This document shows positions 18,501-34,270 of a DNA stretch of 38,317 nucleotides, piece after piece. Position numbers and translations under genes: made by a program. How positions within the stretch are numbered: position 1 is the stretch's first letter; every line of letters starts with the position of its first letter. Under the pieces are notes generated by a model, which saw only the letters and a program-made list of their open reading frames with translations, searched no databases and was not told where the DNA came from. This stretch comes from a virus, in IMG/VR virus record IMGVR_UViG_3300032753_000083, positions 1 to 38,317 of that record. The stretch is one strand, 5' to 3'.

Positions 18501-21500
18501 GACGAACTTCGTGGTACTGTTGTACAACCAGCAAATGCTAACTTAAACTTAGTTAATGATAGACCAAAATCTATTAACTCATTAACACGTATTCAAAGTT
18601 TAATTCCAAACTTGTTACAAAATACAGTTATAACAGGAACAACTGGAAATACACAAGTACTAGCGACTACAGCCACAACTGGAACAGGTACAGTTGCAAC
18701 AATTAGTTTTGCAACTCAAACATCTGCACCATTTGTTGTAGGACAATACATTACAGTTAGCGGTGTAACTCCAAGTGGTTATAACGGAAGTTATGTTGTC
18801 ACAGCAGTAACAACAAATAGTGTAAGCTATGCAAACACAACAACTGCAAGCCAATCAGTTGCAGGTATTGTAAGTAGTCAAGTAACAGGATTGCCAGCAG
18901 GTGATGTTGGTAGTACAACTGCGGTAAACACAGTAAACACAAACGTACAGTTAATCAATAACATGATTTACAACGGTTTACCACAAACTCCTGCATTTAG
19001 TATTCCTGCCGTAACTAACTATAACACATATTATTTGAATGGATTTAGTTATGGTGTAACACAATTACAAAATAACTATAACTTTATCAAAGCAGAAATT
19101 GCGGCCTACTTAAACACATATTATAGTTCTGTATGGACTACATTTGGTAGCACAAACCAAACAGAAACTTTACGTGATGTTGGTTTTGTAGTAGACGGAT
19201 TACAATATGATATGGCTTATGGTTGTAACAACCAAAGTATCATCAATGGTAGTTCATACTATTCCTTGAATATTCCACAAATTTTAACAGCATATAGTCC
19301 AGCGACAGTTGGCGCATTACAAAGATTACAAGCAATCGTAAGTCAGATTGTTCAAGGTCAATCAGTTACAGCTACTTCTGGTAACAGCGTAACACAGTCA
19401 ACTGGTGGTAGTGCTGGTTCTGCGGCGGCTGGTGCATTTGCTGGAGCTCGTGTTGCTGACGTAATTTACTGGTTACAAAACGGTTATGCAAACTCAACTG
19501 TTAATAATATTACTGGTTCAATTAGCGGAACAACATTGACAGTTACAGCGGCTACATCGACTGTAGCTACTGGTGCGTTGTTAACTGGTACAGTATTAAC
19601 AACAACTGCAACAGCTACTAACAGTGGTACAGGTTTAGTATCTCTAGCTAGTACTACTGGCTTGTCAGCTGGTATGGCTATTACATTTACCGCAACATAC
19701 GGTTCTGGTAACCAATCAACATTTGGTGGGTTGTCACAAACAACTTATACAATTAACACAGTTTCAGCAGGTTCAGGTGTTACATTATACAACTATGGCA
19801 CATCAACACCTGCAACATTAACAACTGGTACAGGCTTAATGACTGCAACAGCAGGCGTTGCACCAGGTACTTATATTGTTAACCAAATTACAAGTATAGC
19901 AAGTGCCCAAGCCGCAACTACATTAGCAAGCGGTGGTTCAAGTGGTACTAACACATTTGTAGTATCAAGTGCAACTGGTATTGCGGCAGGTCAACTTGTA
20001 ACAGGTACTGGTATTCCAGCTGGTTCATATGTTATTTCAACATATACTTCTGGAACAACTGTTACTCTTGTTACAGCGGCAGGTGCTCCAAGCAACTTTA
20101 CAACTAACGGTTCCGGTGCATACTTATTCTACCCAGCAGGTTCAACAGGTACTTACACAGTTAACGTAAGTCAAACTATTACTGGTATTGCATTATCAAC
20201 TAACGCAACATTTACTCCAATCACATCTGGTGCATTTAGTTTCGCAAGTTCAACAGCATTGCAAACAGCTTACAATGCTTTAGTTGCACGTCAAAGCGAA
20301 ATTGCATCAGACGCTCAAGCATGGGTGGCAAAATACAATCAAGCATACAATATTAGTGCAACATTAAGTAACCGCGATGCTGGTTATATTTCAACTGCAT
20401 TAGCGTATGACATTTTGTTTGGATCAAACTTTAACAGTATTGCTTGTGGTCGTGCATTTAACCGTTTGAATACAAGTGCTCAAGCGTTGTTAGCAAACAC
20501 AAATAATGAATTGTATGCAACAACTGGTGCAATTACATTTATTGGATTCAAAGCGAAAGAAATCGCGGCAAGCGGTGCAACAGTTCAAGCAAGTACATTG
20601 ATTGATGATATTGTAACTAAGATTAACGGACAAGTTACAACTACATTGTCTACCGCTACAACAAGTACAAACGTATTAACAGTAGCAAGTACAACCGGTA
20701 TGGCAGTAAACATGCCAATCACATTCACCGGATTGCCAAGCCCAATCACAACAACTGCTACAATTACAGCTACTTCAACTAACTTAATTACTGTTGCCAA
20801 CTCAACAGGATTTGCTGTTGGACAACAAATTTACTTTACTAGTACAGTATTTGGTAACATTGTTCCAAGTCAATTGTATTACATTGCAAGTTTAAGTGGT
20901 AGCACTATCACCGTAAGTTTAACTTACGGTGGCGCCGCAGTTGCATTGGTTAACGGTACTGGTTCTATGAACGTTACAGTTAATAATGCTGGCGGTTTAT
21001 GGAACAATAACACCTATTGGATCAACAGCATTCCAAGCGGAACAACTATTACTATTACAAACAGTTTCAAGAGCGGAACTCCATACACAATTACTAACAC
21101 AGTAACAAGTATGACAGCCGCAGTTACAGCAGGTGCAACAGTCACATGGCCATATTCAAATAACCCAATGATTAACGGATCATTAACATATAATGATACA
21201 TTAACGACCATTCAGGGTGCTGAAATTTTACGTGCAAATATCTCATTCCTTGCATACGAAGCCGCGGCTTATACTCTTGCAAGTTATGGTGGTACAGTAA
21301 CAGCTACTACATCAAGCACAAACGTATTCACAACAAGCAGTAATCACAACTTTGTGGTTGGAGACCCAGTTGTGTTTAGCGGAACTGTAGCTGGCGGTGT
21401 TGTTGCAGGAACTACATATTATGTGTTGACAGTTCCAAACTCAACTACATTCTCAGTAAGTTCTACTCAAGCAGGTACAGGAACCCAAGCCGCATTGTCA

Positions 21501-24500
21501 TTGACTACAACATCTAGCGATAGTTTCACAGTAAGCTATTACTACAATACTGCTAAGTGTGTACGTGATACTACAAACTTTATTAACGCATTGATATATG
21601 ACTTAAATTACACAGGTAACTATAAGTCAATGAGAGCGGCTGAGCTTTATGTTAATGCTATTACAGGTTCGTTGACACAAAACTTCTACCTAGTAAGAAA
21701 TGCTTGCGGTATACGTAACCAAACAATGAACGGTTTGACAGGCACACTAAGTTCTGCAAACGCTTATGGTACAAAACGTCCAACAGCAGGTGCTTATACA
21801 AGTTTAGATCCAGGATTTGGTCCAAACGATAGTAACTCATGGGTATTCTCACGTAGTACATTCGTACAAAACTGTACAATGTTTGGATATGCATGTTCTG
21901 GTGCAAAAGTTGACGGAGCATTACACGCTGGCGGTTACAAGTCGATGGTTGCTAACGACTATACTTGTGTAATTGGTGATGGTATTGGTTGGTGGACAAC
22001 AGGTACCGGTTCATTATCAGAACTTGTTTCAGTGTTTAACTACTACTCATACGCAGGTTACTTGAGTGAGCTAGGCGGACGCATTCGTGCTACTAACGGT
22101 AACAGCTCATATGGTACATACGGTGTTATTGCTGAAGGCGTTGATACATACGAAACTCCAATTTACGGTACAGTAAACAACAGAAGTTTTGGTCCACAAA
22201 TTACCAACGTACTTACAGATAGTACAACACAAATTTTACGTCTAGAGTATGAAAATGCCGGACAAAACTATACAAACGCCGTACCAGTAGTAAGCGGATC
22301 TGGTTACAACATTATTTCATATCAAGATGAATATCGCGATGCCGCAGTATTTGAAACACGTTTAATCGACCTTAACAATGGTCAAGGTGTTGGCGGTTCA
22401 GCTTATGTTAGCGCAGTAAACGTTGGTCAAACTAATACATTAGGTGTTGGTTACCATCAAATTGCGGCGGCTGATACAGCATTGACTAGTGCATACAACG
22501 GTATGAGAATCTTAATTACTGCTGGTACAGGTGTTGGACAATATGCAAATATTTTAACATACACTAACGGTAGTAAAATTGCACAGATTGTTCGTCCAAC
22601 ATTTGTAACATTAACAGTTACAGGTTCAACAACTACAGTATTGCAAGTTGCAAGTACAAGTACATTATATGTAAATCAACCAATATACCTAAGTGCAACA
22701 ACAGCTGGTGTGTTTAGTGCGTACACAGTTTACTATGTACAGTCTATTCCTAACTTAACAACATTCACATTAAGCGCAACATCAAACGGTGCGGCAATTA
22801 CTGGTTTAACATCAACAAGCGCACAAACTATTAGTTTATATGCCGCTGGTTGGGACCATGTTGTTCCAGGAACACCAATCAATAATACAACTGACTTAAC
22901 AAGTGCTTATATTATTGAACCGGCAGTTTCATATACAAGCCCAGGTTATACTGCTACTGCAAGAACATTAAGTTCAAGTGTAAACTGGAGTTCTGTGGCA
23001 TCCGGTGCAGGGTACTACATGGCTGTTGCTACAGCTAGTACTGCAACAGCATACAGCACAACTGGTAAAACATGGACAGCAGGTGGAGCATTGCCAAGTT
23101 CGACAACATGGAATAACGTTGTATTTGGCGGCGGATCTGGCGCTCAAGCAACTGTTACATTAGGCGGTTTTGGTGGATCTGGTGCAGTATTAACAGCAAC
23201 TTTAGGATCTGGATTAACAGCAGGTCAGGTTGTTAGTGTAACTGTTGTTAACGGTGGATATAACTACACAACAGCACCAACAGTTCAATTTGTTGGTTCT
23301 GGTACAGGAGCGGCCGCAACAGCAGTTGTTCTTAACGGTGTAATTCAATCGGTCACTGTTACAGTTAACGGTTCTGGTTATGCTTCAGCTCCAACAGTTA
23401 ACGTAGTAACAAGTGCAGTAACAGCAGTAACTCCAATTACATGGGGACGTGGTTATCAAACAACTCCAACAGTTGTTATTGCTCCTCCATTCAGCGGTAC
23501 AGTTTGGAGTAACGGTGGAAGTGTAACAAGTGGACAATATTACTATTACTACTATGCTACAACACAAGCAACTAACTACTACCTTGCAACATCAAGCGGA
23601 ACATTTAGTTCAACACCTCCATCATTCACATCTGGTACAGGTGCATCAGGAACTTATGGTGTAAACTTAACTTATGTCGGTACACAAGCAACTGTAACAC
23701 CGACATTGACTAATACAGGTGTAAGTAGCTATGCTATTAACCAAATTGGTTATGGTTATACAAGCACACCAACTATTACAATTACAGACTTAGCGGCAAA
23801 ATTTGTTGCAATTTCTGGAACTACTGCAACTGCATATCTTGCTCCGAGTAGCATTGGATCTGCATGGACAGCAGGCAACGGTTTACCAACAGCAGGCTTT
23901 ACAGGCCTAGCATATGGTAACGGTGTATATGTTGCTGTTGGTATCTATTCAGGAACTAGTGCTATTGCATCGAGTACTGATGGTATTACTTGGGTTAACA
24001 GAACTGCTCCAGGCGTTGCTACTCAAGTATACAGTTCTGTAGCATTTGGACAAATGGGCCCAGGATCAAGCGCAACAACAACAGGTATGTTTGTTGCAGT
24101 TACATCTGGTTCTAACGTAACAGCCTATAGTACAAACGGCGTTTCATGGGTAGCTGGCGGTAACTTACCAAGTGTTGCTAGCTGGTCAAGTGTAACATAC
24201 GGTAACGGACGTTTTGTTGCAGTAGCATCTGGTAGCAACTTAACTGCTTACAGTAACAACGGTGGTGTTACATGGTATGCAAGTACAGCTAACGGCGGAT
24301 CAAACTTACCATTATCACAAAACTGGAGTGGTGTAAAATACGCAGAAGGATTGTTTGTAGCAACAGCTACTAGCCCAACTCCAACAGTTACTACAACTAC
24401 TCCTGTTTCAAACGTGATTACTTTGTCAAGTACAGCTGGTATTAACATTGGTAACACTTTTGTACCAACAGCAGTAACACAAAGTACAACAGCAACAGCA

Positions 24501-27500
24501 AGTTCTAACTCTACTGCAAGTAATAATAACGCAATTATTATTCCAACAACTACAACAGCTGGTACAGTTTTAAGTCCAATGGGAACAACAACTGGTACAT
24601 GGCTTGCAGGTATGGCATTAACTAGTACTGGTACTGTAACATCTGGTACCTGGGTAACTGCTCTTAATGCTGGTACAGTAACAACAACCGGTATTGCAAG
24701 TACTGTTGCAAGTACAACAGGTACAATTGGTGCATCAATTACAGGTTCAGGTACATTTGCCAGTCCATGGGTTGCAACAATTAGCGGTTTAAGTAGTGTT
24801 GCAACATTCGTAGTTGGCGCACAAATTACTGCAACATCAGGAACAGGTACATTATATGGTAGTACACCAACTAGTGTAACAGTAACAAGTATTGTTAACT
24901 CAACAACTATTACATATTCTGTAGTTGGCGGTACAACACCAACAGCAGGTACAGTAACCAACATCAGTCAAACTGTATTGACAGCAAGCGCATCGAGCAA
25001 CTTGTTACCAGGTATGGCTTTAACTGGCGGTGCTGTAACAGCAAGTTATGTAGCTGGACAGATTAGTTCAACAGGTACAGCATTAGCAACAGCATTGTTC
25101 ACTGGAACAACTGGAACTAACACAATCGTTCTAAGTTCGTTCACAGTTGGTACTATTGCTTCTGTGGCAGTTGGACAATTTGTTGCTCCAATAGCAGGTA
25201 TTCCAGCTAACACATTTGTTACAGCGGTTAACACAACTACAAGCACAATCACTATTAGTGCTAACTTGTATAGTTCAATTTCTGGATCAACTAGCACTTA
25301 TGCGGCTGGTACTGGTGCTGGAACTTATGCGTTAACTCCGTTAACAACTGGTACAATTACTGGAACACCAACTACAGGTACAAGTTATTCAGTAAGTATT
25401 ACTCAAACACAGGCCGCGGCTACTGTAACCGGTACGCAAAACTCAATTACAGTTGGTAGTACAGCTGGTATGGTTGCAGGCGAATCAATTGTATTCACTG
25501 GAACAAGTTTTGGTAACATTGTAGCAAGCACAACATACTACATTACTGAAGTTATTAGCTCAACATTGTTATCAGTTAGTTCAACTTACGGTGGTACAAA
25601 CTTTGTAGTAACTGCTGGTTCAGGTACAATGACTGCAACTGCTGGTTCTGTACTAGGCGGTTTAACTTCAGGTACAACATATTATGTTGTAAGTGTAAGT
25701 GGTAACCAAATTACAGTAAGTTTAAGTAACACATTAACTCCAGTATACTCTGTATCAAGTGGTAACGGTTCATGGAATAGCTTAACTGGTAACAACTTTG
25801 CGGCAACAAGTTGGGATGGTTTAAACTGGACTCAACAGTTATTGCCAACAAACGCAAGTTGGAGTGCTCCAGCATTTGGTAATATTCAAGCAAGTAACGT
25901 TGGATATAATCCATTATGGGTAACACTAGCACAGGCTGTACCTGGTACAATTATTTCTGTAGCAAGTTCATCTGGTACAACATTAACTTTAGGCTCTGCG
26001 GCTACACTAGTTGCAGGCCAAGCAATTACATTTGGTACAAGTTTTGGTAACATTGTTGCTGGAACAATTTACTATGTACAAGCATCCATTACTTCAAGTA
26101 CAAGTTTAACAATTAGTGCAACATACCTAGGAGGTGCGTTCACAGTTGGAACAGCATCTATTGCAAGTATTGGTACTGTTCTATCTACAACTACTGCGGC
26201 AAGTATGCATACTGGCGCAACACCATTAGGTCGTGCAAAAGTAGCAAGTGGTGCAATTACTGAAATTCGTATGATTGAACCAGGTAGCGGTTTCCCTAAA
26301 GGTAACGTTACTGCAACTACATCAGGAACTAACATTATTACTGTAGATAATACAGAAAACTTAATTGCTTTACAACCAGTAGAGTTTAATACAGTTAGTG
26401 CTGGAGGTTTATCAGTTCAAACAACTTACTATGTAATTGGTTCAAGCATTACTTCTAACTCGTTCCAAGTTGCGGCATCGGCGGCTCTAGCGACAATTGG
26501 TACAGCAGTAACTTTAACAACAAGTAGTCCAACTGGAATGATTTATACGGCTAGTCCGATTGTAACTATTACTGATCCAAACCACGTTAATACTGCGGCT
26601 ACTCGTGTACGTACAGGCGACGGTGTACTAGGTAACCCAAGTTTCCCTAACCGTGGTGCTGGTAACGCGACTGCAACTGCAAGTTCAGGTGGTGATGGTT
26701 ATGCAGATATCTATCAAAACACAGCATACATTAACATCGCTGGATTATATGCAATTCCACAAGCTGGTGCAAACGTACAGTTCTCAAATATTCCAAATGC
26801 TTGGTACAAACTAGTTATTGTAACCAACCAGTTGGGACAAGCAGGAAACTACACAGCACAGTTCCAAGTTAGCCCAAGTTTAACAACTTACCTTGCTCCA
26901 AACCATGGTGTACTAGTTACAACAAGATTGAAGTACAGTCAGGTTCGTTTAACTGGACATGACTTCTTGTATGTAGGTTCGGGTAACCAAACACAAACAA
27001 ACTATCCAAACGTTACAACTGCTAACGCAATACAAGCCAACCAAACATTCCCAAATATTGGTGGTCGTGTGTTCTTTACAGCTACTGACCAAGACGGTAA
27101 CTTTAACGTTGGTAACTTGTTCGGTGTACAACAAGCGACTGGTACTGCTACATTGAATGCTAACGCATTTAACTTAGCTGGTTTGCAGAGCTTGACACTT
27201 GGTTCTGTTAACTTAGGAGTTGGTTCAGCAACTATTACACAATTTAGTACTGATCCTTACTTTACTGCTAACAGTGACAACATTCTACCAACACAAAAGG
27301 CTATTAAGAGCTTTATTACAGCCCAAATTGGTGGCGGATCAAGTAGTTTGAACGTAAATACACTAACATCTGGTCAAATCTATGTTGCAAATAACAGCAT
27401 TTCTAACATTAACGGAACCCAGATTTATGTCAGCAGTAAAATGCTGTTCACAGGCGGAATTGATGGGGCACCTGTTGCTCTTGTATTCTTTGCATCAAGA

Positions 27501-27503
27501 TAA
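15540..27503 (+). CDS. Giant modular fibre/adhesin, paralogue 2 (3987 aa)
   Basis: One uninterrupted frame of 12 kb, with AGAGGAA upstream. The scaffold parallels the preceding gene: seven chitin-binding-type repeats (residues about 10-650), a pectin-lyase-like beta-helix (IFVKTGTYNEVLPIVVPA, IIGDELRG, later GIRNQTMNGLTG and GGRIRATNGNSSYGTYGVIA), Asp-box-like repeats near residues 2480-2930, and the same C-terminal TATDQDGNFNVGNLFGVQQ and ILPTQKAI. It is longer mainly because about 1000 residues are inserted in the beta-helix after DELRGTVVQP (about 18530-21685), with more further on. Family B cassettes lie near 16720-16935, 17775-18010, 19600-19850, 20640-20970 (two), 21296-21530, 22610-22840, 25430-25700, 25965-26175 and 26310-26540. 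Another widespread module (GGYNYTTAPTVQF type) lies near 23190-23410. Likely a very long fibre or sheet-like adhesin. Confidence 0.75.
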   Translation: MAEFKLGRIKFVYQGTWTIGTSYVVDDVVTVGGKTYICTQSNTASALFATDLNSGYWSIVADGSRWTGNWANSTYYLVGDQVLYGGIIYQCTTAHTSASSTATLTATAATANGTTATITFNALSSNIQPFLVGASITVSGFTAQSAFNGTYTVTACTPTTVSYALSQTLTGTVMGTVSGTGTLGLEVNQTSWTAFANNLNWTNTWSTNTRYKVRDLVSYGGYTYLCNTAHVSANTTASGLEANQSSWDVFNAGIAYQGAWSGSSVHYRLNDIVKYGASLWICTTPHTSTSTFATANFSVFVNGLEYVTGSWSGSTTYVTGDIVNYGGNLYTAIAVNTNQIPSTQSASWQIFNQGFSFVGDWSNALSYKVGQVVRQGGYTYLCTADNTVLTITATATTSGTNSVTVSSTTGLAAGVPIIFTGTSFGNITSGTQFYILSVIDSTHITLSATSGGAVLNVTSATGSLTGVTQVQPPFTGYWTRLNSGIRWNPGTATYTNIAGTNITGSGTGATFDITASKTYYTVTVHSGSAGSGYASTNTIKILGSQVGGISPANDITITVTGVSTGAISTITSTGYSVTWVSGATYVLGDTVYFGANTYICVSAHTSLTGNRPDNDATGAYWNVLASGAESAVLTTQGDMFYYGSTGPTRLPIGTDGQVLRVNGNVPAWQYYGQINNIVYVGPAGVDTVAASQGTSIDKPWATIRYACYQVENGYLNTNSTALLQLNKQFLLKEINNYVYYQYSFNVTGTSSTTLTVGGSSSVAQTTTTNMYVGMPIVFTTSSGSIVAGTVYYVQAIGSSTTFSISATFGGSVFTVGTGTANVGTYSYNQAKTERDTGIIVDGLISDIGRGGTLKTTQAVQAYFATSSSFATNVNSYDIVPFVSALNYLGTLAGNVLANTAPGTNYQTVLGVPSGSRAQQQINTTYTAETTIPARILQLLAIITGPLQLGNTNSLLPAVTPNTTIFVKTGTYNEVLPIVVPAYTAIIGDELRGTVVQPANANLNLVNDRPKSINSLTRIQSLIPNLLQNTVITGTTGNTQVLATTATTGTGTVATISFATQTSAPFVVGQYITVSGVTPSGYNGSYVVTAVTTNSVSYANTTTASQSVAGIVSSQVTGLPAGDVGSTTAVNTVNTNVQLINNMIYNGLPQTPAFSIPAVTNYNTYYLNGFSYGVTQLQNNYNFIKAEIAAYLNTYYSSVWTTFGSTNQTETLRDVGFVVDGLQYDMAYGCNNQSIINGSSYYSLNIPQILTAYSPATVGALQRLQAIVSQIVQGQSVTATSGNSVTQSTGGSAGSAAAGAFAGARVADVIYWLQNGYANSTVNNITGSISGTTLTVTAATSTVATGALLTGTVLTTTATATNSGTGLVSLASTTGLSAGMAITFTATYGSGNQSTFGGLSQTTYTINTVSAGSGVTLYNYGTSTPATLTTGTGLMTATAGVAPGTYIVNQITSIASAQAATTLASGGSSGTNTFVVSSATGIAAGQLVTGTGIPAGSYVISTYTSGTTVTLVTAAGAPSNFTTNGSGAYLFYPAGSTGTYTVNVSQTITGIALSTNATFTPITSGAFSFASSTALQTAYNALVARQSEIASDAQAWVAKYNQAYNISATLSNRDAGYISTALAYDILFGSNFNSIACGRAFNRLNTSAQALLANTNNELYATTGAITFIGFKAKEIAASGATVQASTLIDDIVTKINGQVTTTLSTATTSTNVLTVASTTGMAVNMPITFTGLPSPITTTATITATSTNLITVANSTGFAVGQQIYFTSTVFGNIVPSQLYYIASLSGSTITVSLTYGGAAVALVNGTGSMNVTVNNAGGLWNNNTYWINSIPSGTTITITNSFKSGTPYTITNTVTSMTAAVTAGATVTWPYSNNPMINGSLTYNDTLTTIQGAEILRANISFLAYEAAAYTLASYGGTVTATTSSTNVFTTSSNHNFVVGDPVVFSGTVAGGVVAGTTYYVLTVPNSTTFSVSSTQAGTGTQAALSLTTTSSDSFTVSYYYNTAKCVRDTTNFINALIYDLNYTGNYKSMRAAELYVNAITGSLTQNFYLVRNACGIRNQTMNGLTGTLSSANAYGTKRPTAGAYTSLDPGFGPNDSNSWVFSRSTFVQNCTMFGYACSGAKVDGALHAGGYKSMVANDYTCVIGDGIGWWTTGTGSLSELVSVFNYYSYAGYLSELGGRIRATNGNSSYGTYGVIAEGVDTYETPIYGTVNNRSFGPQITNVLTDSTTQILRLEYENAGQNYTNAVPVVSGSGYNIISYQDEYRDAAVFETRLIDLNNGQGVGGSAYVSAVNVGQTNTLGVGYHQIAAADTALTSAYNGMRILITAGTGVGQYANILTYTNGSKIAQIVRPTFVTLTVTGSTTTVLQVASTSTLYVNQPIYLSATTAGVFSAYTVYYVQSIPNLTTFTLSATSNGAAITGLTSTSAQTISLYAAGWDHVVPGTPINNTTDLTSAYIIEPAVSYTSPGYTATARTLSSSVNWSSVASGAGYYMAVATASTATAYSTTGKTWTAGGALPSSTTWNNVVFGGGSGAQATVTLGGFGGSGAVLTATLGSGLTAGQVVSVTVVNGGYNYTTAPTVQFVGSGTGAAATAVVLNGVIQSVTVTVNGSGYASAPTVNVVTSAVTAVTPITWGRGYQTTPTVVIAPPFSGTVWSNGGSVTSGQYYYYYYATTQATNYYLATSSGTFSSTPPSFTSGTGASGTYGVNLTYVGTQATVTPTLTNTGVSSYAINQIGYGYTSTPTITITDLAAKFVAISGTTATAYLAPSSIGSAWTAGNGLPTAGFTGLAYGNGVYVAVGIYSGTSAIASSTDGITWVNRTAPGVATQVYSSVAFGQMGPGSSATTTGMFVAVTSGSNVTAYSTNGVSWVAGGNLPSVASWSSVTYGNGRFVAVASGSNLTAYSNNGGVTWYASTANGGSNLPLSQNWSGVKYAEGLFVATATSPTPTVTTTTPVSNVITLSSTAGINIGNTFVPTAVTQSTTATASSNSTASNNNAIIIPTTTTAGTVLSPMGTTTGTWLAGMALTSTGTVTSGTWVTALNAGTVTTTGIASTVASTTGTIGASITGSGTFASPWVATISGLSSVATFVVGAQITATSGTGTLYGSTPTSVTVTSIVNSTTITYSVVGGTTPTAGTVTNISQTVLTASASSNLLPGMALTGGAVTASYVAGQISSTGTALATALFTGTTGTNTIVLSSFTVGTIASVAVGQFVAPIAGIPANTFVTAVNTTTSTITISANLYSSISGSTSTYAAGTGAGTYALTPLTTGTITGTPTTGTSYSVSITQTQAAATVTGTQNSITVGSTAGMVAGESIVFTGTSFGNIVASTTYYITEVISSTLLSVSSTYGGTNFVVTAGSGTMTATAGSVLGGLTSGTTYYVVSVSGNQITVSLSNTLTPVYSVSSGNGSWNSLTGNNFAATSWDGLNWTQQLLPTNASWSAPAFGNIQASNVGYNPLWVTLAQAVPGTIISVASSSGTTLTLGSAATLVAGQAITFGTSFGNIVAGTIYYVQASITSSTSLTISATYLGGAFTVGTASIASIGTVLSTTTAASMHTGATPLGRAKVASGAITEIRMIEPGSGFPKGNVTATTSGTNIITVDNTENLIALQPVEFNTVSAGGLSVQTTYYVIGSSITSNSFQVAASAALATIGTAVTLTTSSPTGMIYTASPIVTITDPNHVNTAATRVRTGDGVLGNPSFPNRGAGNATATASSGGDGYADIYQNTAYINIAGLYAIPQAGANVQFSNIPNAWYKLVIVTNQLGQAGNYTAQFQVSPSLTTYLAPNHGVLVTTRLKYSQVRLTGHDFLYVGSGNQTQTNYPNVTTANAIQANQTFPNIGGRVFFTATDQDGNFNVGNLFGVQQATGTATLNANAFNLAGLQSLTLGSVNLGVGSATITQFSTDPYFTANSDNILPTQKAIKSFITAQIGGGSSSLNVNTLTSGQIYVANNSISNINGTQIYVSSKMLFTGGIDGAPVALVFFASR
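15843..16080 (+). repeat. Family A Ig-like cassette, copy 5
   Basis: Contains a VSGFTAQSAFNGTYTVT stretch. It splits the second chitin-binding-like repeat between HTSAS and LGLEVNQTSW. An undisrupted sister repeat in the same protein reads HVSANTTASGLEANQSSW. Confidence 0.7.
17001..17273 (+). repeat. Family C cassette inserted at a precise site
   Basis: About 91 codons with GSGTGATFDIT, GSAGSGYASTNTIKILGS and GGISPANDITITVTGV. It falls between GIRW and the WVSGATYVLGDTVYFG strand of the seventh chitin-binding-like repeat. The paralogous protein reads straight through as GVLWTNRWATGNSYAVGDLV. Confidence 0.7.
18661..18882 (+). repeat. Family A Ig-like cassette, copy 6
   Basis: Contains GVTPSGYNGSYVVTAVTT followed by a SVSYA strand. 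It is part of the large expansion inside the beta-helix region of the 3987-residue protein. Confidence 0.65.
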
Positions 27504-27888: not shown

Positions 27889-29832
27889 ATGGCACGTTAT
27901 AATACCACACTAGCGACAGAAATAGTCTCTGGAGCACAAACACTCTTGTCACCAGCACAAGGTGGATACACAGAATTTCAAGGTACTGCACCTTATACTG
28001 TAACAATTCCAGGACCATCGTTGTTCCTAGGTCAGACACAAAGTTATTTTAATAACACATCTGGCATAGTTACACTTCAAACGCCAGCTGGTGTCATTAA
28101 CGGTCCTGGTTCAACAAGTTCTAACACAATAGCTTTGCCAGCAGGTAGCAGTATTATTATTGCATCTGATGGCACAAACTACAGCGTTATTACTTTTCCA
28201 GGCGGCCCACAATATGGAGTTACTGGAACATTTTCAAGCGATTTAATTAGTACCAACACAGGTACTGTTAACGTTTTTAATACTAACGCAACAGCAATCA
28301 ACGCATTTGGTAATGCAAGTACAATTAACATTGGTTCAAGTACTGGTACAACAACAATTAATAACTCACTATTAGTTAAGGGCGGTATTACTACAGTTAA
28401 CTCAAGTTCAGTATTAGTTGAAGACAAGAACATTGAAATTGGTTATGTTAACCCAGTTAGTTATGGTGGCGGTACTATTGGTACTATTACTGGTTCATTG
28501 GGCTCGAGTACAACATTTACAAGTATTACTGGTACTAAAGTAACAGCCGCAAGTACATATAGTGGTGTTAGTCAATTCGCAACAAGTGGTGTTGGTACCG
28601 GTGCAACATTTAACATAACAACTACTGGTGCAGGTACAACATATACTGGCGTAACTACAATTACATTAGTTAACCCGGGTTCAGGATATGCAATTAACGA
28701 TACAATTACTATTGGTGGTAGTTCTTTAGGCGGTACAACTAGCCCAAACAACTTAACATTTACAGTTAGTAACGTAATTTACTCACCATGGACTGCAACT
28801 GTTACTCTTATGACCAACACAACCAACTTGGTCGCTGGTCAATCAGTTAGTGCAACTAACGGTACAGGTAGCTTAGGAGGCGGCGGTACAAGTTATATTA
28901 TTTCTAACGTTCCAAGTTCAACAAGTATACAAGTAACTGCAACAGGTGGTACAACTCCAACAGCAGGTACTATTACAGCAATTATTCCAGGTAGTGCTGA
29001 TACATTTGCCAACGGCGGCGGCATTAAATTATACGGATCAACTAATCACTTATTAACATGGAACAGCGCCGCAAACGGACCAGCTAACGGTAACCAAAAC
29101 CCAGCATGGGTAAGTACTGAAGGTTTAATGATTAGTACTTCTAACGGTTTTGGTATTCAAAATACCGGTAACGTTAACTTTAACATTTTAACCAACGGAC
29201 AGGCAACAGGTACTGTATCTATTGCAACTAACGCGGGTACAGGTAACTTGTTTACTAACGCAAGTTCGGGCGTTTCAATTGGTGCTAGCGGTGGTACTGC
29301 TACAATTAGTAACACTAACCTTACAGTTGGACAGTCTGGTGGTACAGTTACTTTCAACGGTATTACAACTTTCACAATGAACAGCGTAACATCGTTTAAC
29401 TTAACTGGCGGTGGTACAATGAACGCTGGTAGTACATATGGTTATTTTAGTTCTCTAGGCGTTGGTACTAACACTAACGGTGGCGGCGGTACAATTTATG
29501 CTTCAAACAACATTGTTGCTTACTATTCTGATGATAGATTAAAGACACGTTTGGGCAAAATTGAAGATGCTCTTGCTAAATTAGAAACATTAAATGGTTT
29601 CTACTTCGAAGCTAACCAAACTGCTCAAGATTTGGGCTATACCGTTCAACGTGAAGTTGGAGTTTCGGCTCAAGAAGTCAACGCAATCCTGCCAGAAATT
29701 ATTAAACCAGCTCCGATTGACGCTAAGTACATGACAGTTCAATACGAAAAGTTATTACCTTTAGTAATTGAAGCAGTTAAGGAATTGTCAGCCCAAGTTA
29801 AAGAATTGAAAAAACAAATTAACAAAGAGTAA
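27889..29832 (+). CDS. Tail fibre with C-terminal S74 intramolecular chaperone (647 aa)
   Basis: The N-terminus (FQGTAPYTVTIPGP, then QSYFNNTSGIVTLQTP and SIIIASDGTNYSVIT) is a common phage fibre attachment module. The middle is a beta shaft interrupted by a family C cassette (about 28555-28775) and more Gly/Thr modules. The last 101 residues are a peptidase S74 (endosialidase-type) chaperone domain: YYSDDRLKTRLGKIEDALAK, GFYFEAN, a GVSAQEV motif, LPEII and MTVQYEKLLPLVIEAVKEL, ending in a short coiled coil. In this family the domain drives trimerisation and then cleaves itself off using a Ser-Lys dyad; here Ser547 and Lys552 fit, with cleavage expected just before Ser547. Only 3 bp separate it from the Asn/Cys-rich gene. 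Confidence 0.9.
   Translation: MARYNTTLATEIVSGAQTLLSPAQGGYTEFQGTAPYTVTIPGPSLFLGQTQSYFNNTSGIVTLQTPAGVINGPGSTSSNTIALPAGSSIIIASDGTNYSVITFPGGPQYGVTGTFSSDLISTNTGTVNVFNTNATAINAFGNASTINIGSSTGTTTINNSLLVKGGITTVNSSSVLVEDKNIEIGYVNPVSYGGGTIGTITGSLGSSTTFTSITGTKVTAASTYSGVSQFATSGVGTGATFNITTTGAGTTYTGVTTITLVNPGSGYAINDTITIGGSSLGGTTSPNNLTFTVSNVIYSPWTATVTLMTNTTNLVAGQSVSATNGTGSLGGGGTSYIISNVPSSTSIQVTATGGTTPTAGTITAIIPGSADTFANGGGIKLYGSTNHLLTWNSAANGPANGNQNPAWVSTEGLMISTSNGFGIQNTGNVNFNILTNGQATGTVSIATNAGTGNLFTNASSGVSIGASGGTATISNTNLTVGQSGGTVTFNGITTFTMNSVTSFNLTGGGTMNAGSTYGYFSSLGVGTNTNGGGGTIYASNNIVAYYSDDRLKTRLGKIEDALAKLETLNGFYFEANQTAQDLGYTVQREVGVSAQEVNAILPEIIKPAPIDAKYMTVQYEKLLPLVIEAVKELSAQVKELKKQINKE
28555..28775 (+). repeat. 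Family C cassette, copy 3
   Basis: Contains GVGTGATFNITTTGAG, NPGSGYAINDTITIGGSSLG and SPNNLTFTV. It is inserted in the shaft of the S74 fibre between its IEIGYVNP strand and the FANGGGIKLYGSTN strand. Confidence 0.65.
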
Positions 29833-29835
29833 AAA

Positions 29836-30225
29836 ATGACAACACCTTCCGGAACAATATACATCAGCCAAGTTGACGGCGAAATTGGACTACCAAATAG
29901 TAGTCCATATTCTAACCTAAGTTTCTTGAACGGCTATGTTATTCCTGGTCAGCGCGATTCATATCCTGATATGAACGAAATGCGTAACAGAGCATACTAC
30001 CAGTCAAATAACAAAGGCAACTGTAACAACGGTAACTGCGGAAATTGTAATTGTAATTGCGGTAATATCTGTTGCTATAACTGTTATATTAATGGTCACA
30101 TTAATTGTACAAACTGCGACGGACAAAACTGGTTACAAAACAACTGTAATTGTAACTGTACCTATAATTGCAATTATGCTTCAGGATCATATAACTGTAA
30201 TTGTAATTGTAACTGTAATTGTTAA
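29836..30225 (+). CDS. Asn/Cys-repeat protein, putative virion-borne substrate of the radical SAM enzyme (129 aa)
   Basis: Residues 1-56 (PSGTIYISQVDGEIGLPNSS, then LSFLNGYVIPG) resemble the short N-terminal domain of many phage appendage proteins (SG.I..S.I..E.G..S....SL). Residues 57-129 are dominated by Asn and Cys: 19 Cys at 63, 68, 71, 73, 75, 79, 80, 83, 91, 94, 104, 106, 108, 112, 121, 123, 125, 127 and 129, ending in five Asn-Cys pairs. A single Trp (W99) lies in this tail. The gene begins 3 bp after the S74 fibre gene and is followed 16 bp later by a radical SAM/SPASM enzyme, the usual order of precursor and maturase in RiPP clusters. I infer that the tail is cross-linked or otherwise modified. 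Metal binding or disulphide packing are alternatives. I do not recognise a named family. Confidence 0.7.
   Translation: MTTPSGTIYISQVDGEIGLPNSSPYSNLSFLNGYVIPGQRDSYPDMNEMRNRAYYQSNNKGNCNNGNCGNCNCNCGNICCYNCYINGHINCTNCDGQNWLQNNCNCNCTYNCNYASGSYNCNCNCNCNC
30193..30222 (+). repeat. (AAYTGT)5 hexanucleotide repeat encoding (Asn-Cys)5
   Basis: Five in-frame AAY-TGT units end the Asn/Cys-rich gene just before its TAA. Shorter in-frame runs of the same unit lie at 30043-30060 and 30142-30159. Gain or loss of whole units by slippage would change the number of Asn-Cys pairs without breaking the frame. Confidence 0.85.
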
Positions 30226-30241
30226 CAAGACAAGGAACAAC

Positions 30242-31720
30242 ATGATTTTTGAAATTCTGGCAGAAAGATATGGTACTGGCGTTACCGATCAAAAGACATT
30301 TTTTTACGATAACGAAAAAAATATCTTAAGTGATGAAACTGGTTATATCTGGGAATATCCTAACACCTACGCTAATTCAACATTTATACAAGATGTTCCA
30401 TATAAGCCATTTGATAAAAATAATCCTTTGAAAAAATCAAAGGATGTACGTACAGTAAAAATTCAAATGGGGTTATCTTGTAATTACAGTTGTGATTATT
30501 GCAGTCAGAAATTTGTCGAACGTCCACGTGAAACTAACGCTAAAGATATTGAAAACTTTATGGAGTTATTCAATAACTTAAATTTTAGCGAAGATCGTGG
30601 ATTACGTGTTGAGTTCTGGGGCGGCGAGCCATTTGTTTATTGGAAAACAATGAAACCATTGGCCGAAGCTATTGCAGAAAGATTTAAAGACTGGAAAAAT
30701 AAACCATCATTTAGCGTTATTACTAATGGTAGTTTGTTAACAGAAGAAAATTGTGCATGGTTATATAGCATGGGATTCCACGTTGCTGTCAGTCACGACG
30801 GTCCTGGACAATTCACTCGCGGACCAGACCCGTTTGAAGATCCTAAAAAACGTGAAGTTGTATTAGATTTATATCAAATTTTACGTCCTTTAAACCGTAT
30901 GAGCTTTAACTCTATGTTAAGTTATAAAAATCAAAGTCGTAAAGCAATTTATGATTGGTTTGTCGACTTTACAAATGATCCAAGTGTATTGTTAGGCGAA
31001 GGAACATTTGTAGATGCATACGATGAAGACGGTTTAGAAAATTCACTTAAAACAAAAGCAGATCATTTTGCCTTTAGACAACGTTCTTTTGGGGAAATAT
31101 TTGGAACTAATGGAGAAATTGGTTTTACAGGTATACTTGGTAAGATTGATAATTTTACAGAAGACTTGTTAACACATCGAGAAGCAGATTATCTCGGTCA
31201 AAAATGCGGCATGGACAGTGAAGAAACTGTTGCATTTGACCTACGTGGAAATGTAATTACATGTCAAAACGTAAGTGCATTAGAAACAGGTAAAAATGGT
31301 GAACCACATTTAAGCGGTAACATTGCAAATATCGAAGATGTTTCAATTTCAACAAGTACACACTGGTCAAACCGTAAAGAATGTCCAGAGTGCCCCGTAT
31401 TACATATTTGTAAAGGTGCATGTATGTTCTTAGATGGCGTTTACTGGAAAGCTAGTTGTAACAATGCCTACTCAGATAACGTGCCATTGTTCGCCGCAAG
31501 TATTGAAAAAATTACAGGCTACATTCCTGTATTAATTAAGAGCGATACATTACCTTTAGATCGTCAAGATATCTGGGGTAATATATACAAACACGAAGAA
31601 GAACAACCAAAGAAAATTATACCAATTAAGGTAGTCAGTGAAAAAGTTGCGGTAATCGATAACATCGAAGTTTACGGCAAAAGTTCCCTGATAAATACTA
31701 CAGAAGAATCAGGAGCATGA
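30242..31720 (+). CDS. Radical SAM/SPASM peptide-maturase-like enzyme (492 aa)
   Basis: The canonical CNYSCDYC motif (Cys80, Cys84, Cys87) binds the catalytic [4Fe-4S] cluster and S-adenosylmethionine; the SAM-binding WGGEP follows at residues 126-130. The C-terminal half has the full SPASM cysteine pattern for auxiliary clusters: Cys322, then G336-X4-Cys341, then Cys381-X2-Cys384-X5-Cys390-X3-Cys394 and Cys406. Enzymes of this class modify ribosomal peptides (thioether or C-C cross-links, epimerisation) or activate sulphatases. The start is ATG 30242, preceded by AAGGAAC; an earlier in-frame ATG at 30092 lies inside the Asn/Cys gene and is rejected. Residues 1-70 might bind a leader, but I see no clear PqqD-like fold. 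The position beside a Cys-rich small protein argues for a peptide substrate. Confidence 0.88.
   Translation: MIFEILAERYGTGVTDQKTFFYDNEKNILSDETGYIWEYPNTYANSTFIQDVPYKPFDKNNPLKKSKDVRTVKIQMGLSCNYSCDYCSQKFVERPRETNAKDIENFMELFNNLNFSEDRGLRVEFWGGEPFVYWKTMKPLAEAIAERFKDWKNKPSFSVITNGSLLTEENCAWLYSMGFHVAVSHDGPGQFTRGPDPFEDPKKREVVLDLYQILRPLNRMSFNSMLSYKNQSRKAIYDWFVDFTNDPSVLLGEGTFVDAYDEDGLENSLKTKADHFAFRQRSFGEIFGTNGEIGFTGILGKIDNFTEDLLTHREADYLGQKCGMDSEETVAFDLRGNVITCQNVSALETGKNGEPHLSGNIANIEDVSISTSTHWSNRKECPECPVLHICKGACMFLDGVYWKASCNNAYSDNVPLFAASIEKITGYIPVLIKSDTLPLDRQDIWGNIYKHEEEQPKKIIPIKVVSEKVAVIDNIEVYGKSSLINTTEESGA
31690..31698 (+). promoter_or_regulatory. T4-type late promoter (GATAAATAC) inside the radical SAM gene end
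   Basis: Seven of eight bases match TATAAATA. Predicted transcription start is near 31703, giving a short leader with AGGAG at 31711-31715 before the ATG at 31722. The spacing to ribosome-binding site and start resembles that at 15506. It would give the 306-residue protein and the halogenase-like gene extra late expression. Confidence 0.5.
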
Positions 31721-31721
31721 A

Positions 31722-32642
31722 ATGAATTTATACTTGGCAAACGGAACTAACAGATTATATGCATTATCAATTCAACTTGACGAGTCAAGTTTGACTTATA
31801 AGACATATGATGTGTATGAAACAATTAAATTAAAGCAATTCTGGGAAACACAAACAGGTAACGTATTACCTGGATCTTTATTTGATAAAGCACCTACACC
31901 TGCTATAACACCTGCATGGGTTACTGAAACATATTCAGTTTACGAAAGCCAATCACCTGAATCGCAAACTATTAATTTTTCGGACATTCAAGGTTTATCT
32001 GATTTTTCAGATCACGGTATTTTCATGTTGTATTCACCAGATTCTCCGTCTTATGTTTCTCCGATTAGACCAACGGCTCCTTCTTCGGTGCCAGCAGGAA
32101 AAACATCGATTAGAGTTCCACTTCATAACGGATACGCACTGACTACTGGTTCAAAAATGAGTCCATTTGTTCATAGTGCATTTAATAACAATATTGCTAT
32201 GATTGCAATATGTGTGCCATTTGCAAGTGCTCCAGTTGATCAATGGTCAATTGTGTTTAACGTGAAAGATTCTAGTTTGTTTAAGTTAACATCTGGACAA
32301 GCAACAACACCAATGCAAGGAAATAGCGTTGGTAAATTTACAAAAAGTTTATTACCTAAAGTATGGTTTACTAATAAAACTATGACTGTAACTGCTGATG
32401 GATTTGTTGATGTTCCTTTTTACTTAGGAGATTCAACAGGAAATCCTATCACACAATCAGATGCAACTGTATATTTGAAAACCACAGCAGGACAGTTAAA
32501 CAAACAACAAGTTACCACAATTAATGGTCAAGGTACTGTTCGTTTAATTGCAAGTCATTTAGTTTCTGGAGAAACTGCAACTATTAGTTGCGGATTTAAA
32601 TTATTCTCGGGAACAGACGATTGCGTTGTCACTGTAAATTAA
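31722..32642 (+). CDS. Unrecognised protein with Ig-like C-terminal domain (306 aa)
   Basis: I do not recognise the family. Residues 1-55 are mixed alpha/beta (MNLYLANGTNRLYALSIQLD), and residues 70-210 are aromatic- and Ser/Pro-rich with strand-like stretches. Residues about 214-306 read as a bacterial Ig-like domain (VWFTNKTMTVTADGFVDVPF, ITQSDATVYLKTTAGQL, GQGTVRLIASHL, ending in a CVVTVN strand). There is no catalytic motif, signal peptide or membrane segment. Composition is closer to the virion proteins than to the enzymes around it. It begins 1 bp after the radical SAM stop with AGGAG upstream and is followed 7 bp later by the halogenase-like gene. It could be a second virion substrate, a scaffold presenting the substrate, or an unrelated appendage protein. 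Confidence 0.6.
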   Translation: MNLYLANGTNRLYALSIQLDESSLTYKTYDVYETIKLKQFWETQTGNVLPGSLFDKAPTPAITPAWVTETYSVYESQSPESQTINFSDIQGLSDFSDHGIFMLYSPDSPSYVSPIRPTAPSSVPAGKTSIRVPLHNGYALTTGSKMSPFVHSAFNNNIAMIAICVPFASAPVDQWSIVFNVKDSSLFKLTSGQATTPMQGNSVGKFTKSLLPKVWFTNKTMTVTADGFVDVPFYLGDSTGNPITQSDATVYLKTTAGQLNKQQVTTINGQGTVRLIASHLVSGETATISCGFKLFSGTDDCVVTVN

Positions 32643-32649
32643 GGAAAAT

Positions 32650-33861
32650 ATGAAAATAGGAATTGTAGGTTCTGGAACCGCCAGCGCAGTTTCACTATTA
32701 AAAATATTTGAACAACTCGAAAAACATCAATGTAAGCATGTTGATGTTTTTTGCATTTATGATCCTAACATTCCTATCACTACGGTAGGGGAAAGCACTA
32801 GTTCGTTATTGCCAATCTTGTTATACAACGTAGCAAATTTTTCAATAACCGAAGAAATGCAACATTTTGATGGTACATTAAGATGGGGTACTCGATACTA
32901 TTGGAAAGATGCTAACGATACAGAGTTTTTTGTTAAAAACGGTATACCAGGTTTGCACGTTAATAGTGAAAAATTTAGTAGATTTGTAATTAATAGGCTA
33001 GATGAAATTTACGAAAACTTTAGCCAGATACATGGCAACGTATCTAGTATGACACAAGATGCATATAAAGTTACGGCAGTCATCGATGATGTTGAACATA
33101 AATTTGATTTTTTAATCGATTGCAGAGGAAATCCAACAGAAGAAGAATTGAATAGTGGCGCATACAGCTTTCCTCAATTTGAAACAGTTAATTCTGTTAT
33201 ATTATATCCAGATTTTAAAGAATATAATGAAGATATTACATCAGCGTATGTACATGAAGATGGGTGGATGTTCGGAGTTCCACTAACACATCGAAAAGCG
33301 TTTGGATATTTGTACAATAAAAACTTTACAAGTCACGAAGAAGCAAGTGAAAAATTTGCAAAATTAAAAGGTATCGATACAATTAATCTAAGAAGATTCA
33401 GTTGGAGACAGTATTATAAAAATACTGCTATGGACGGAAGAATTATGTCTATGGGAAATCGATTACAATTCTTTGAACCTGCACAAGCATTGCCGTTACA
33501 TTATTACATTAATTTAACAATGGAATTCATTAGTCGAATTATTAATAATAATTTAGACGTACATAAGATGAATATACAATTAAATTTTGACCATAGAAAA
33601 AATATAGAAGGAATGCAAAATTTAATTGCATTAAATTATTGCGGGTCTTGTAATATTAAAAGTCCGTTCTGGGAATATGCTACAATTAACTCAAGAAAAC
33701 GTCTAAAAAATTCTCAACAGTTTCAACAATATTTAAGAGACTGTGAAAAATCTGAAAAAATTGAAATATACTGGTGGCATAACGCCCAGTTAATGAAAGA
33801 ATACATTGACGGATTTGGAATTAAATTAGATCAACTAAGTCAAAAACAGTCTGCAACTTAG
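32650..33861 (+). CDS. Flavin-dependent tryptophan-halogenase-like protein (403 aa)
   Basis: The N-terminal GIVGSGTASA (residues 4-13) is the FAD-binding loop, followed by TTVGESTSSLL (residues 44-54), as in tryptophan halogenases. Residues 205-211 (GWMFGVP) occupy the place of the family's GWxWxIP motif, with Phe for the second Trp, followed by GYLYNKNFTSHEEA (usual GYVYS..F.S..EA). NRLQFFEPAQALPLHYY (residues 270-286) matches the F.EPLESTS region. Where halogenases have the catalytic Lys in FK.., this protein has TLRWGTRYYW with Arg78, so chlorinating activity is uncertain. Halogenase-like genes are known in cyanophage-type myoviruses. The AAGGAAA start signal lies 7 bp after the previous gene. 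Its last 41 bp overlap the Nudix gene on the other strand. Possible roles are peptide Trp halogenation or another flavin oxidation. Confidence 0.75.
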   Translation: MKIGIVGSGTASAVSLLKIFEQLEKHQCKHVDVFCIYDPNIPITTVGESTSSLLPILLYNVANFSITEEMQHFDGTLRWGTRYYWKDANDTEFFVKNGIPGLHVNSEKFSRFVINRLDEIYENFSQIHGNVSSMTQDAYKVTAVIDDVEHKFDFLIDCRGNPTEEELNSGAYSFPQFETVNSVILYPDFKEYNEDITSAYVHEDGWMFGVPLTHRKAFGYLYNKNFTSHEEASEKFAKLKGIDTINLRRFSWRQYYKNTAMDGRIMSMGNRLQFFEPAQALPLHYYINLTMEFISRIINNNLDVHKMNIQLNFDHRKNIEGMQNLIALNYCGSCNIKSPFWEYATINSRKRLKNSQQFQQYLRDCEKSEKIEIYWWHNAQLMKEYIDGFGIKLDQLSQKQSAT

Positions 33862-34270
33862 TTCTTATTGTTTTGCTACTAAAACTGTTACGTAACCCTT
33901 GGTGCAAAGGTTTAGGAGCACGATCGATAGTAGTCCATGCCCATCCAATATGTTCGTCACTTAGTGTTGGAATAAATTCAGATTCTATCACACACAAGTA
34001 TGTGTGGAAATTAAAAACTTTGTCGTTACTAACAAATGTTTCTAGAGGTATAGTTTTAATTATATTAGGTACAGCGCCTATTTCTTCTTTAATTTCACGT
34101 TGTAAACCTTGCCAAGGTGTTTCTCCAGTGATATTAGTACCACCTACTAGCCCCCAAGTGCCTTCGTGTTTACCGTGACTTTTTTGAAGAAGTAAAAATC
34201 GTTGTGTAGACTTTGCATAAAACAATGCACCACTACAAACAATTTGTTCTTTTACAATACTATTTTCCAT
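33821..34270 (-). CDS. Nudix hydrolase (149 aa)
   Basis: A complete Nudix box, GGTNITGETPWQGLQREIKE followed by EIGA (GX5EX7REUXEEXG), follows an MutT-like beta strand (RFLLLQKSHGKHEGTWGLVG). The Glu residues of REIKEE would bind Mg2+ for hydrolysis of a nucleoside diphosphate linked to another group. Small Nudix enzymes of T4-type phages act on damaged or host nucleotides, or on ADP-ribose/NAD-type substrates; the substrate here cannot be told. The ATG is 19 bp inside the end of the gp15-like gene, so the two are co-transcribed and coupled. At the other end the gene runs 41 bp into the convergent halogenase-like gene, leaving no room for a terminator between them. Confidence 0.88.
   Translation of the reverse strand: MENSIVKEQIVCSGALFYAKSTQRFLLLQKSHGKHEGTWGLVGGTNITGETPWQGLQREIKEEIGAVPNIIKTIPLETFVSNDKVFNFHTYLCVIESEFIPTLSDEHIGWAWTTIDRAPKPLHQGLRNSFSSKTIRTKLQTVFDLVDLI

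Follow-up and report, generated by a model that had tools for sequence, protein, structure and literature searches.

A radical SAM/SPASM cassette in a phage fibre operon, predicted to modify the Asn/Cys repeat of a virion appendage

The DNA analysed here, called the window below, is a 38,317-base virus record of IMG/VR (IMGVR_UViG_3300032753_000083), and its gene matches indicate a tailed, contractile phage as the source. Matches to a tail sheath, a sheath stabiliser and a head-tail adaptor are located at 34-38 kb, and giant fibre-like genes occupy 7-27 kb. A cassette of four genes is situated at 29836-33861 on the plus strand, encoding in this order an Asn/Cys-rich protein (NCp), a radical SAM/SPASM enzyme (rSAM), an Ig-domain protein (IgP) and a flavoprotein of the tryptophan-halogenase family. 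Counted from the preceding S74 fibre gene, the gaps are 3, 16, 1 and 7 bp; the coordinates and the Pfam and PHROG matches confirm the description in an earlier note on this DNA, namely four genes on one strand, 1-16 bp apart, directly following an S74 fibre. The genes flanking the cassette are structural. Judged from sequence, the product of the cassette is probably a chemically modified virion appendage, formed through the action of rSAM on the Asn/Cys (NC) repeat. The features are as follows.

27889..29832, plus strand: tail-fibre protein with S74 chaperone domain (PF13884 Peptidase_S74, 2.5e-8), directly 5' of the cassette
29836..30225, plus strand: NCp, 129 amino acids with 19 Cys, a fibre-type N-terminal domain and an Asn/Cys-rich region; presumed substrate of rSAM
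30192..30222, plus strand: C-terminal NC repeat of NCp, DNA period 6, 5.2 copies, synonymous codons mixed
30242..31720, plus strand: radical SAM/SPASM enzyme, 492 amino acids (PF04055; phrog_1802, 5e-60)
31722..32642, plus strand: IgP, 306 amino acids, with a C-terminal Ig-like domain in the structure model; frequent partner of rSAM
32650..33861, plus strand: tryptophan-halogenase-family flavoprotein, 403 amino acids (PF04820, 6.5e-29; phrog_2928)

The S74 fibre protein also matches PHROG families of tail fibre and baseplate wedge, down to 4e-26. The start of rSAM was taken as 30242, the listed open reading frame (ORF) start at 30092 being a mechanical extension into the preceding gene. Shuffled sequence had promoter-like sites at least as often, and a terminator scan gave no clear boundary signal.

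NCp ends with YNCNCNCNCNC. The Asn/Cys repeat is under constraint at the protein level: its codons are mixed (AAC/AAT and TGT/TGC), and phages, prophages and bacterial genomes elsewhere encode the same amino acid pattern. The N-terminal domain of NCp recurs in Cys-poor phage proteins. Direct homology searches with NCp and IgP gave no matches in annotated phages, because the NC repeat is of low complexity and IgP is divergent. Related viruses and prophages, numbering in the hundreds, encode an Asn/Cys repeat in a tail-fibre or appendage protein and, with it, a dedicated radical SAM enzyme. The usual pattern of the tail is N-C-[N/D/A]-C-[N/D/A]-C, with Asn at the first repeat position in 121 of 149 distinct contexts and Asn, Ala or Asp at the third position in 141 of 149 (counts at the second position are skewed by the filter used in the search). 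The length varies between 3 and 10 repeats of alternating N/A/D-C.

The tail is placed at the C-terminus of fibre or fibre-like proteins of about 200-1080 amino acids, or of small appendage proteins such as NCp of the window. In other cases it immediately precedes a Hint domain (phages JWF and 2-1, and loci L045, L108 and L257-L260), an S74 domain (L146, L376 and L124) or a helical CSKIICTKL domain (L019-L056). In the isolated Achromobacter phages JWF and 2-1, NCNCDCNC...C precedes the Hint domain of a fibre encoded two genes upstream of rSAM. Known examples of Hint and S74 domains cleave themselves off; after such cleavage the mature end of the protein may again be the NC tail. The Cys-rich proteins of L019-L056 share a common C-terminal helical domain, CSKIICTKLY..GLM..IF.ADQ..G, directly after the Cys region; the two that were scanned gave no Pfam or PHROG match for it. 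The fibre ends of one clade (L063-L084) carry a His-rich stretch (DPHHHHNNCTNCNCNC) ahead of the tail, where metal binding at the tip is possible. Rhodobacteraceae genomes, including L240, L244, L246, L252 and L269, encode short proteins ending with NCNCNCRC about 0.6 kb upstream of an rSAM of 35-38% identity, and Thalassobacter stenotrophicus carries several copies per genome; these may belong to a prophage or to another phage-like element.

The association between tail and enzyme was determined from both sides. In the motif-first scan, IMG/VR DNA able to encode YNCNCNC was collected, giving 80 loci. Where the motif was in frame, rSAM was present on 42 of 43 contigs, compared with none of the 37 contigs in which it was not in frame. 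The single exception, L098, is a 7.7-kb contig on which an IgP match is present. The Fisher value for this difference, 4e-22, overstates the independence of the loci, related contigs being included, although the contexts were varied. In the enzyme-first search, 80 IMG/VR loci and 80 GTDB loci were inspected. Among those with enough flank, an ORF with the NC motif was found on the same strand as rSAM in 44/53 GTDB loci and on the opposite strand in 2/53; the corresponding numbers for IMG/VR were 26/40 and 0/40. The 14 IMG/VR loci without the motif include 12 with a homologous Cys-rich protein detected by BLAST and 2 with fibres ending with NCRNCNC. Fibres of unrelated type ending with ...NCNCNC are encoded on the same strand as rSAM, 1-3 kb away.

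The association is thus far above chance, and NC tail and rSAM form a specific, widely conserved pair. This bears out the suggestion that the cassette holds a precursor-like protein beside its radical SAM/SPASM maturase. A lack of co-occurrence in related phages, which by the earlier note would have refuted the idea, is not seen: the genes do occur together there. The general unit is the NC tail with rSAM, often joined by IgP, and only a small group of loci has all four genes. Very probably, rSAM modifies the Asn/Cys repeat chemically. Because the tail ends fibres and appendage proteins, the most likely substrate is an appendage of the virion, and not a peptide for secretion, as the earlier note had suggested for the window. 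For NCp itself, a position on the virion is predicted from the N-terminal domain, the operon and the fibre-fused homologues.

The rSAM contains the CX3CX2C motif at C80/C84/C87 and a complete SPASM pattern (C322-X13-G336-X4-C341, C381-X2-C384-X5-C390-X3-C394 and C406). All ten cluster-binding cysteines are invariant in alignments of 20 and 28 diverse homologues. The enzyme belongs to the phage family phrog_1802 (5e-60), which is uncurated and bears no annotation beyond radical SAM domain protein, with no substrate assigned before. No cut-off of the curated radical SAM families of NCBIfam was reached, the best score being 73 bits against 400 (TIGR04280). The nearest characterised families are the maturases of ranthipeptides and SCIFF, QhpD, and the anaerobic sulfatase-maturating enzyme (anSME). 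Accordingly, rSAM is predicted to be a SPASM enzyme that modifies peptides or proteins, its family being uncurated. The AlphaFold model (predicted local distance difference test score, pLDDT, 86.5) has its nearest folds in anSME (PDB 4K39) and the thioether-forming CteB (PDB 5WHY). As side observations, the NC-tail proteins of L113, L117 and L135 adjoin radical SAM genes of greater divergence (E about 1e-25 to 1e-30 with the family model); both kinds occur in L135, and a second type of maturase may exist. A match from human gut, L003, was rejected as a family member, as it looks like a separate SCIFF-like locus.

For the chemistry, we propose that rSAM would act on the NC repeat of the fibre or appendage protein before or during assembly. 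It would install Cys-centred cross-links, most likely thioethers that link the sulphur of Cys to an adjacent Asn, Ala or Asp, so that a rigid, reduction-proof tip might be formed at the C-terminal, distal end of the appendage, with a possible role in adsorption. By analogy, thioether cross-linking is our best guess for the bond type, because the nearest characterised relatives with Cys-dense substrates form thioethers, and because QhpD does so on a protein subunit, on which the halogenase-like QhpG then acts at Trp. PapB (NF047865) and CteB (TIGR03974) share with the cassette the CX3CX2C and SPASM cysteines, an adjacent gene for a Cys-dense substrate and a fold match; rSAM differs in its scores, 71 bits against a cut-off of 340 for PapB and 44.5 against 425 for CteB, and its putative substrate is a virion protein.

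Several observations weigh against this interpretation. The scores of rSAM are far under the cut-off for every curated family, so the reaction of none of them is transferable to it. The closest fold match, anSME, makes formylglycine, not thioethers. For some distant rSAM homologues, for instance at L265, L268, L272 and L273, neither an NC tail nor a fibre gene is in view. Finally, NCp of the window is small and separate, its place on the particle being deduced from the N-terminal domain and the gene neighbourhood. The genomes of these four distant homologues are of Bacteriovorax type, with one other proteobacterial genome, and possibly represent a cellular branch of the family.

Formylglycine formation and the preparation of a metal site are both live rivals to thioether chemistry. 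If rSAM were anSME-like, one or more tail Cys would be converted into formylglycine, and the aldehyde tip might then react with host-surface amines. The enzyme with the nearest fold acts on protein Cys, anSMEcpe with a Cys peptide comes at the top of the Foldseek list, TIGR03942 (sulfatase_rSAM) is among the family matches, and the JWF homologue carries the annotation of anaerobic sulfatase-maturating enzyme. We regard this conversion as rather unlikely, however: the score is 41 bits against a curated cut-off of 349, the structural similarity scores (TM-scores) for anSME and CteB are similar, NCp contains no CxPxR motif, no sulfatase was detected among the annotated genes scanned around the cassette, and the repetitive Cys pattern resembles a substrate for cross-linking at multiple sites.

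Alternatively, the NC tail could be a metal- or Fe-S-binding tip, for which rSAM only prepares the tail or inserts the cofactor. Other phages are known to have His-rich fibre tips that bind iron, and both the density of Cys and the His-rich stretch that precedes the tail in one clade agree with such a role. On the other hand, SPASM enzymes of related families modify peptides, and the tolerance of 3 to 10 repeats is unlike a fixed metal site. Metal-site preparation is accordingly judged unlikely, and thioether cross-linking is retained as the preferred chemistry.

The cassette may also be compared with biosynthetic systems of ribosomally synthesised and post-translationally modified peptides (RiPPs). 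If NCp were a conventional leader-core precursor, its product would be a peptide secreted against other bacteria or phages. A small protein of precursor size does adjoin a radical SAM/SPASM enzyme whose relatives include RiPP maturases, and to this extent the RiPP arrangement claimed in the earlier note stands. The strict form, with leader removal and export, does not: the four cassette genes include no protease, transporter or immunity gene, and Pfam, NCBIfam and PHROG scans of the cassette and its immediate neighbours detected no protease or exporter. Moreover, the N-terminus of NCp is a fibre-type domain, in the relatives, fibres of 200-1000 amino acids carry the motif at their C-terminus, and structural genes lie on the flanks. 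A secreted RiPP is highly improbable here, and a modified virion appendage remains the favoured product.

One of the closest parallels is the QhpC-QhpD-QhpG system for the maturation of quinohemoprotein amine dehydrogenase, in which QhpD performs radical SAM cross-linking and the flavoprotein QhpG then oxidises Trp, both on a protein subunit (PMC7876137). As in the cassette, a SPASM enzyme and a halogenase-like flavoprotein are encoded together with the substrate, which in the Qhp system is a protein subunit and not a secreted peptide (PMC7876137). The QhpD model TIGR03906 matches all 20 aligned phage rSAMs. The differences are that the window rSAM scores 57.8 bits against a cut-off of 453, that the four cassette genes include neither a subtilisin-like protease of QhpE type nor an ABC transporter, that the cassette substrate is the Cys repeat of a phage appendage, and that the window flavoprotein belongs by sequence to the tryptophan-halogenase family. 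Because the defining features of RiPP, halogenase and Qhp systems were each looked for and found lacking, the cassette is assigned to none of the three.

For IgP, the model (pLDDT 84.6) supports the C-terminal Ig-like fold that had been noticed from the sequence. Matches to known structures were obtained only through this domain, and the fold search gave no structural match for the long N-terminal region. Homologues of IgP adjoin rSAMs of 44-76% identity, and a relative is found within 3 kb in 28 of 53 IMG/VR loci and 41 of 61 GTDB loci, chiefly where the tail is fused to a fibre. We suggest that IgP probably helps as a chaperone, an adaptor or a co-assembled partner of the tip.

The flavoprotein of the window is a clear member of the tryptophan-halogenase family (PF04820, 101.5 bits against a cut-off of 21), as are the likewise phage-encoded VirX1 and cyanophage tryptophan halogenases (phrog_2928; PDB 6QGM, PMC8407142). 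Alignment with RebH, VirX1 and phage homologues showed the state of its two catalytic residues. Both are lost: K79 of RebH aligns with Arg78, and E357 of RebH (E346 of PrnA), within EPLES, aligns with Gln279 within EPAQA. The same two substitutions, Lys to Arg and Glu to Gln, are present in all intact cassette homologues checked (the window, L008, L010 and L016). The WxWxIP region reads GWMFGVP, with one aromatic and one aliphatic change; the Lys-retaining S-SSM5 has GWMFGIP. Since both catalytic residues are substituted, the protein is unlikely to halogenate, and it was rejected as a working halogenase; it probably carries out some other oxidation that depends on flavin, if it is active at all. 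The cyanophage relatives S-SSM5 and S-SSM7 differ in that both keep the catalytic Lys, unlike the window; they were set aside as evidence for the cassette, as no radical SAM gene is nearby in the two loci inspected.

The window flavoprotein could still halogenate NCp by an unusual mechanism, for instance at the one conserved internal Trp (QNWLQ) seen in the homologue alignment. Its family membership and the pairing of intact halogenases with Trp tails in sister loci speak for this, but the two substitutions throughout the cassette homologues and the presence of the same internal Trp in loci without a flavoprotein gene make it very unlikely. A convergent Nudix hydrolase gene on the minus strand (33821-34270; PF00293, 1.8e-16) overlaps the 3' end of the flavoprotein gene by about 40 bp, and a comparable neighbour lies beside the relative L282.

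At other loci a different, canonical halogenase is encoded downstream of rSAM, and the Cys tail contains Trp (CWICACACW, PWICACACW, FVCACACW, or FW just before S74). Lys, Glu and WxWxIP are all kept wherever the halogenase gene of a Trp-tail locus is complete. Among loci with 4 kb of downstream sequence, a halogenase is present in 13 of 14 with a Trp tail, compared with 5 of 134 others, and four of these five are of the residue-lost window type; the contig of L039 ends shortly past rSAM and lies outside this test. For L124, a halogenase was predicted from the FW tail and then found after rSAM on the full contig. The covariation carries less weight as independent proof, since two changes on the rSAM tree are enough to account for the Trp tail; with about two origins, the pairing of intact halogenase and Trp tail is suggestive. 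The halogenation of peptide Trp, which the earlier note had considered, is therefore not borne out in the window, where the catalytic residues are substituted and the C-terminal tail has no Trp, but fits these sister phages. At L359 and L381, both scanned in detail, the halogenase comes with 2-oxoglutarate (2OG)-Fe oxygenases and a second radical SAM gene (L359, 4996-6522, with a weak B12-binding match; L381, 9231-10748), located beside the NC protein, its maturase, the oxygenases and the halogenase in what looks like a larger tailoring island.

These additional oxidative enzymes, flavin halogenases with Trp tails and 2OG-Fe oxygenases elsewhere, would tailor the tail in some lineages. As a tentative generalisation, which we put forward as possible rather than probable, widespread tailed phages and prophages might finish the virion tip by a dedicated rSAM that stitches the Asn/Cys repeat at the C-terminus of the mature fibre, the end being exposed in some lineages by self-removal of Hint or S74 and decorated by lineage-specific halogenases or oxygenases. 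If so, phages would possess a general chemistry by which receptor-binding tips are hardened or diversified, and some phage halogenases would gain a natural substrate. Host range is set by the tips of phage fibres.

No published description of radical SAM maturation of phage fibres was found in open-access full text, and the passages searched in two papers on natural products and RiPPs in phage biology make no mention of it, in agreement with the remark in the earlier note that no described phage system of such kind was known to its author. A radical SAM/SPASM maturase with a dedicated substrate is known; new here are the setting, the virus particle, and the uncurated enzyme family. If the modification of the appendage is true, an orphan family of phage enzymes gains a likely substrate, and radical SAM maturation at the protein level, so far known from examples such as QhpC, extends to virus particles. 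In at least one lineage the Trp of the Cys tail would be a testable answer to what a phage tryptophan halogenase acts on, and the isolated phages JWF and 2-1, together with cultured hosts such as Limnohabitans, make the idea directly testable.

Among the giant fibre-like genes upstream of the cassette, the one at 15540-27503 of the window encodes a predicted protein of 3987 amino acids, of low complexity and rich in repeats, which is probably a giant fibre or adhesin.

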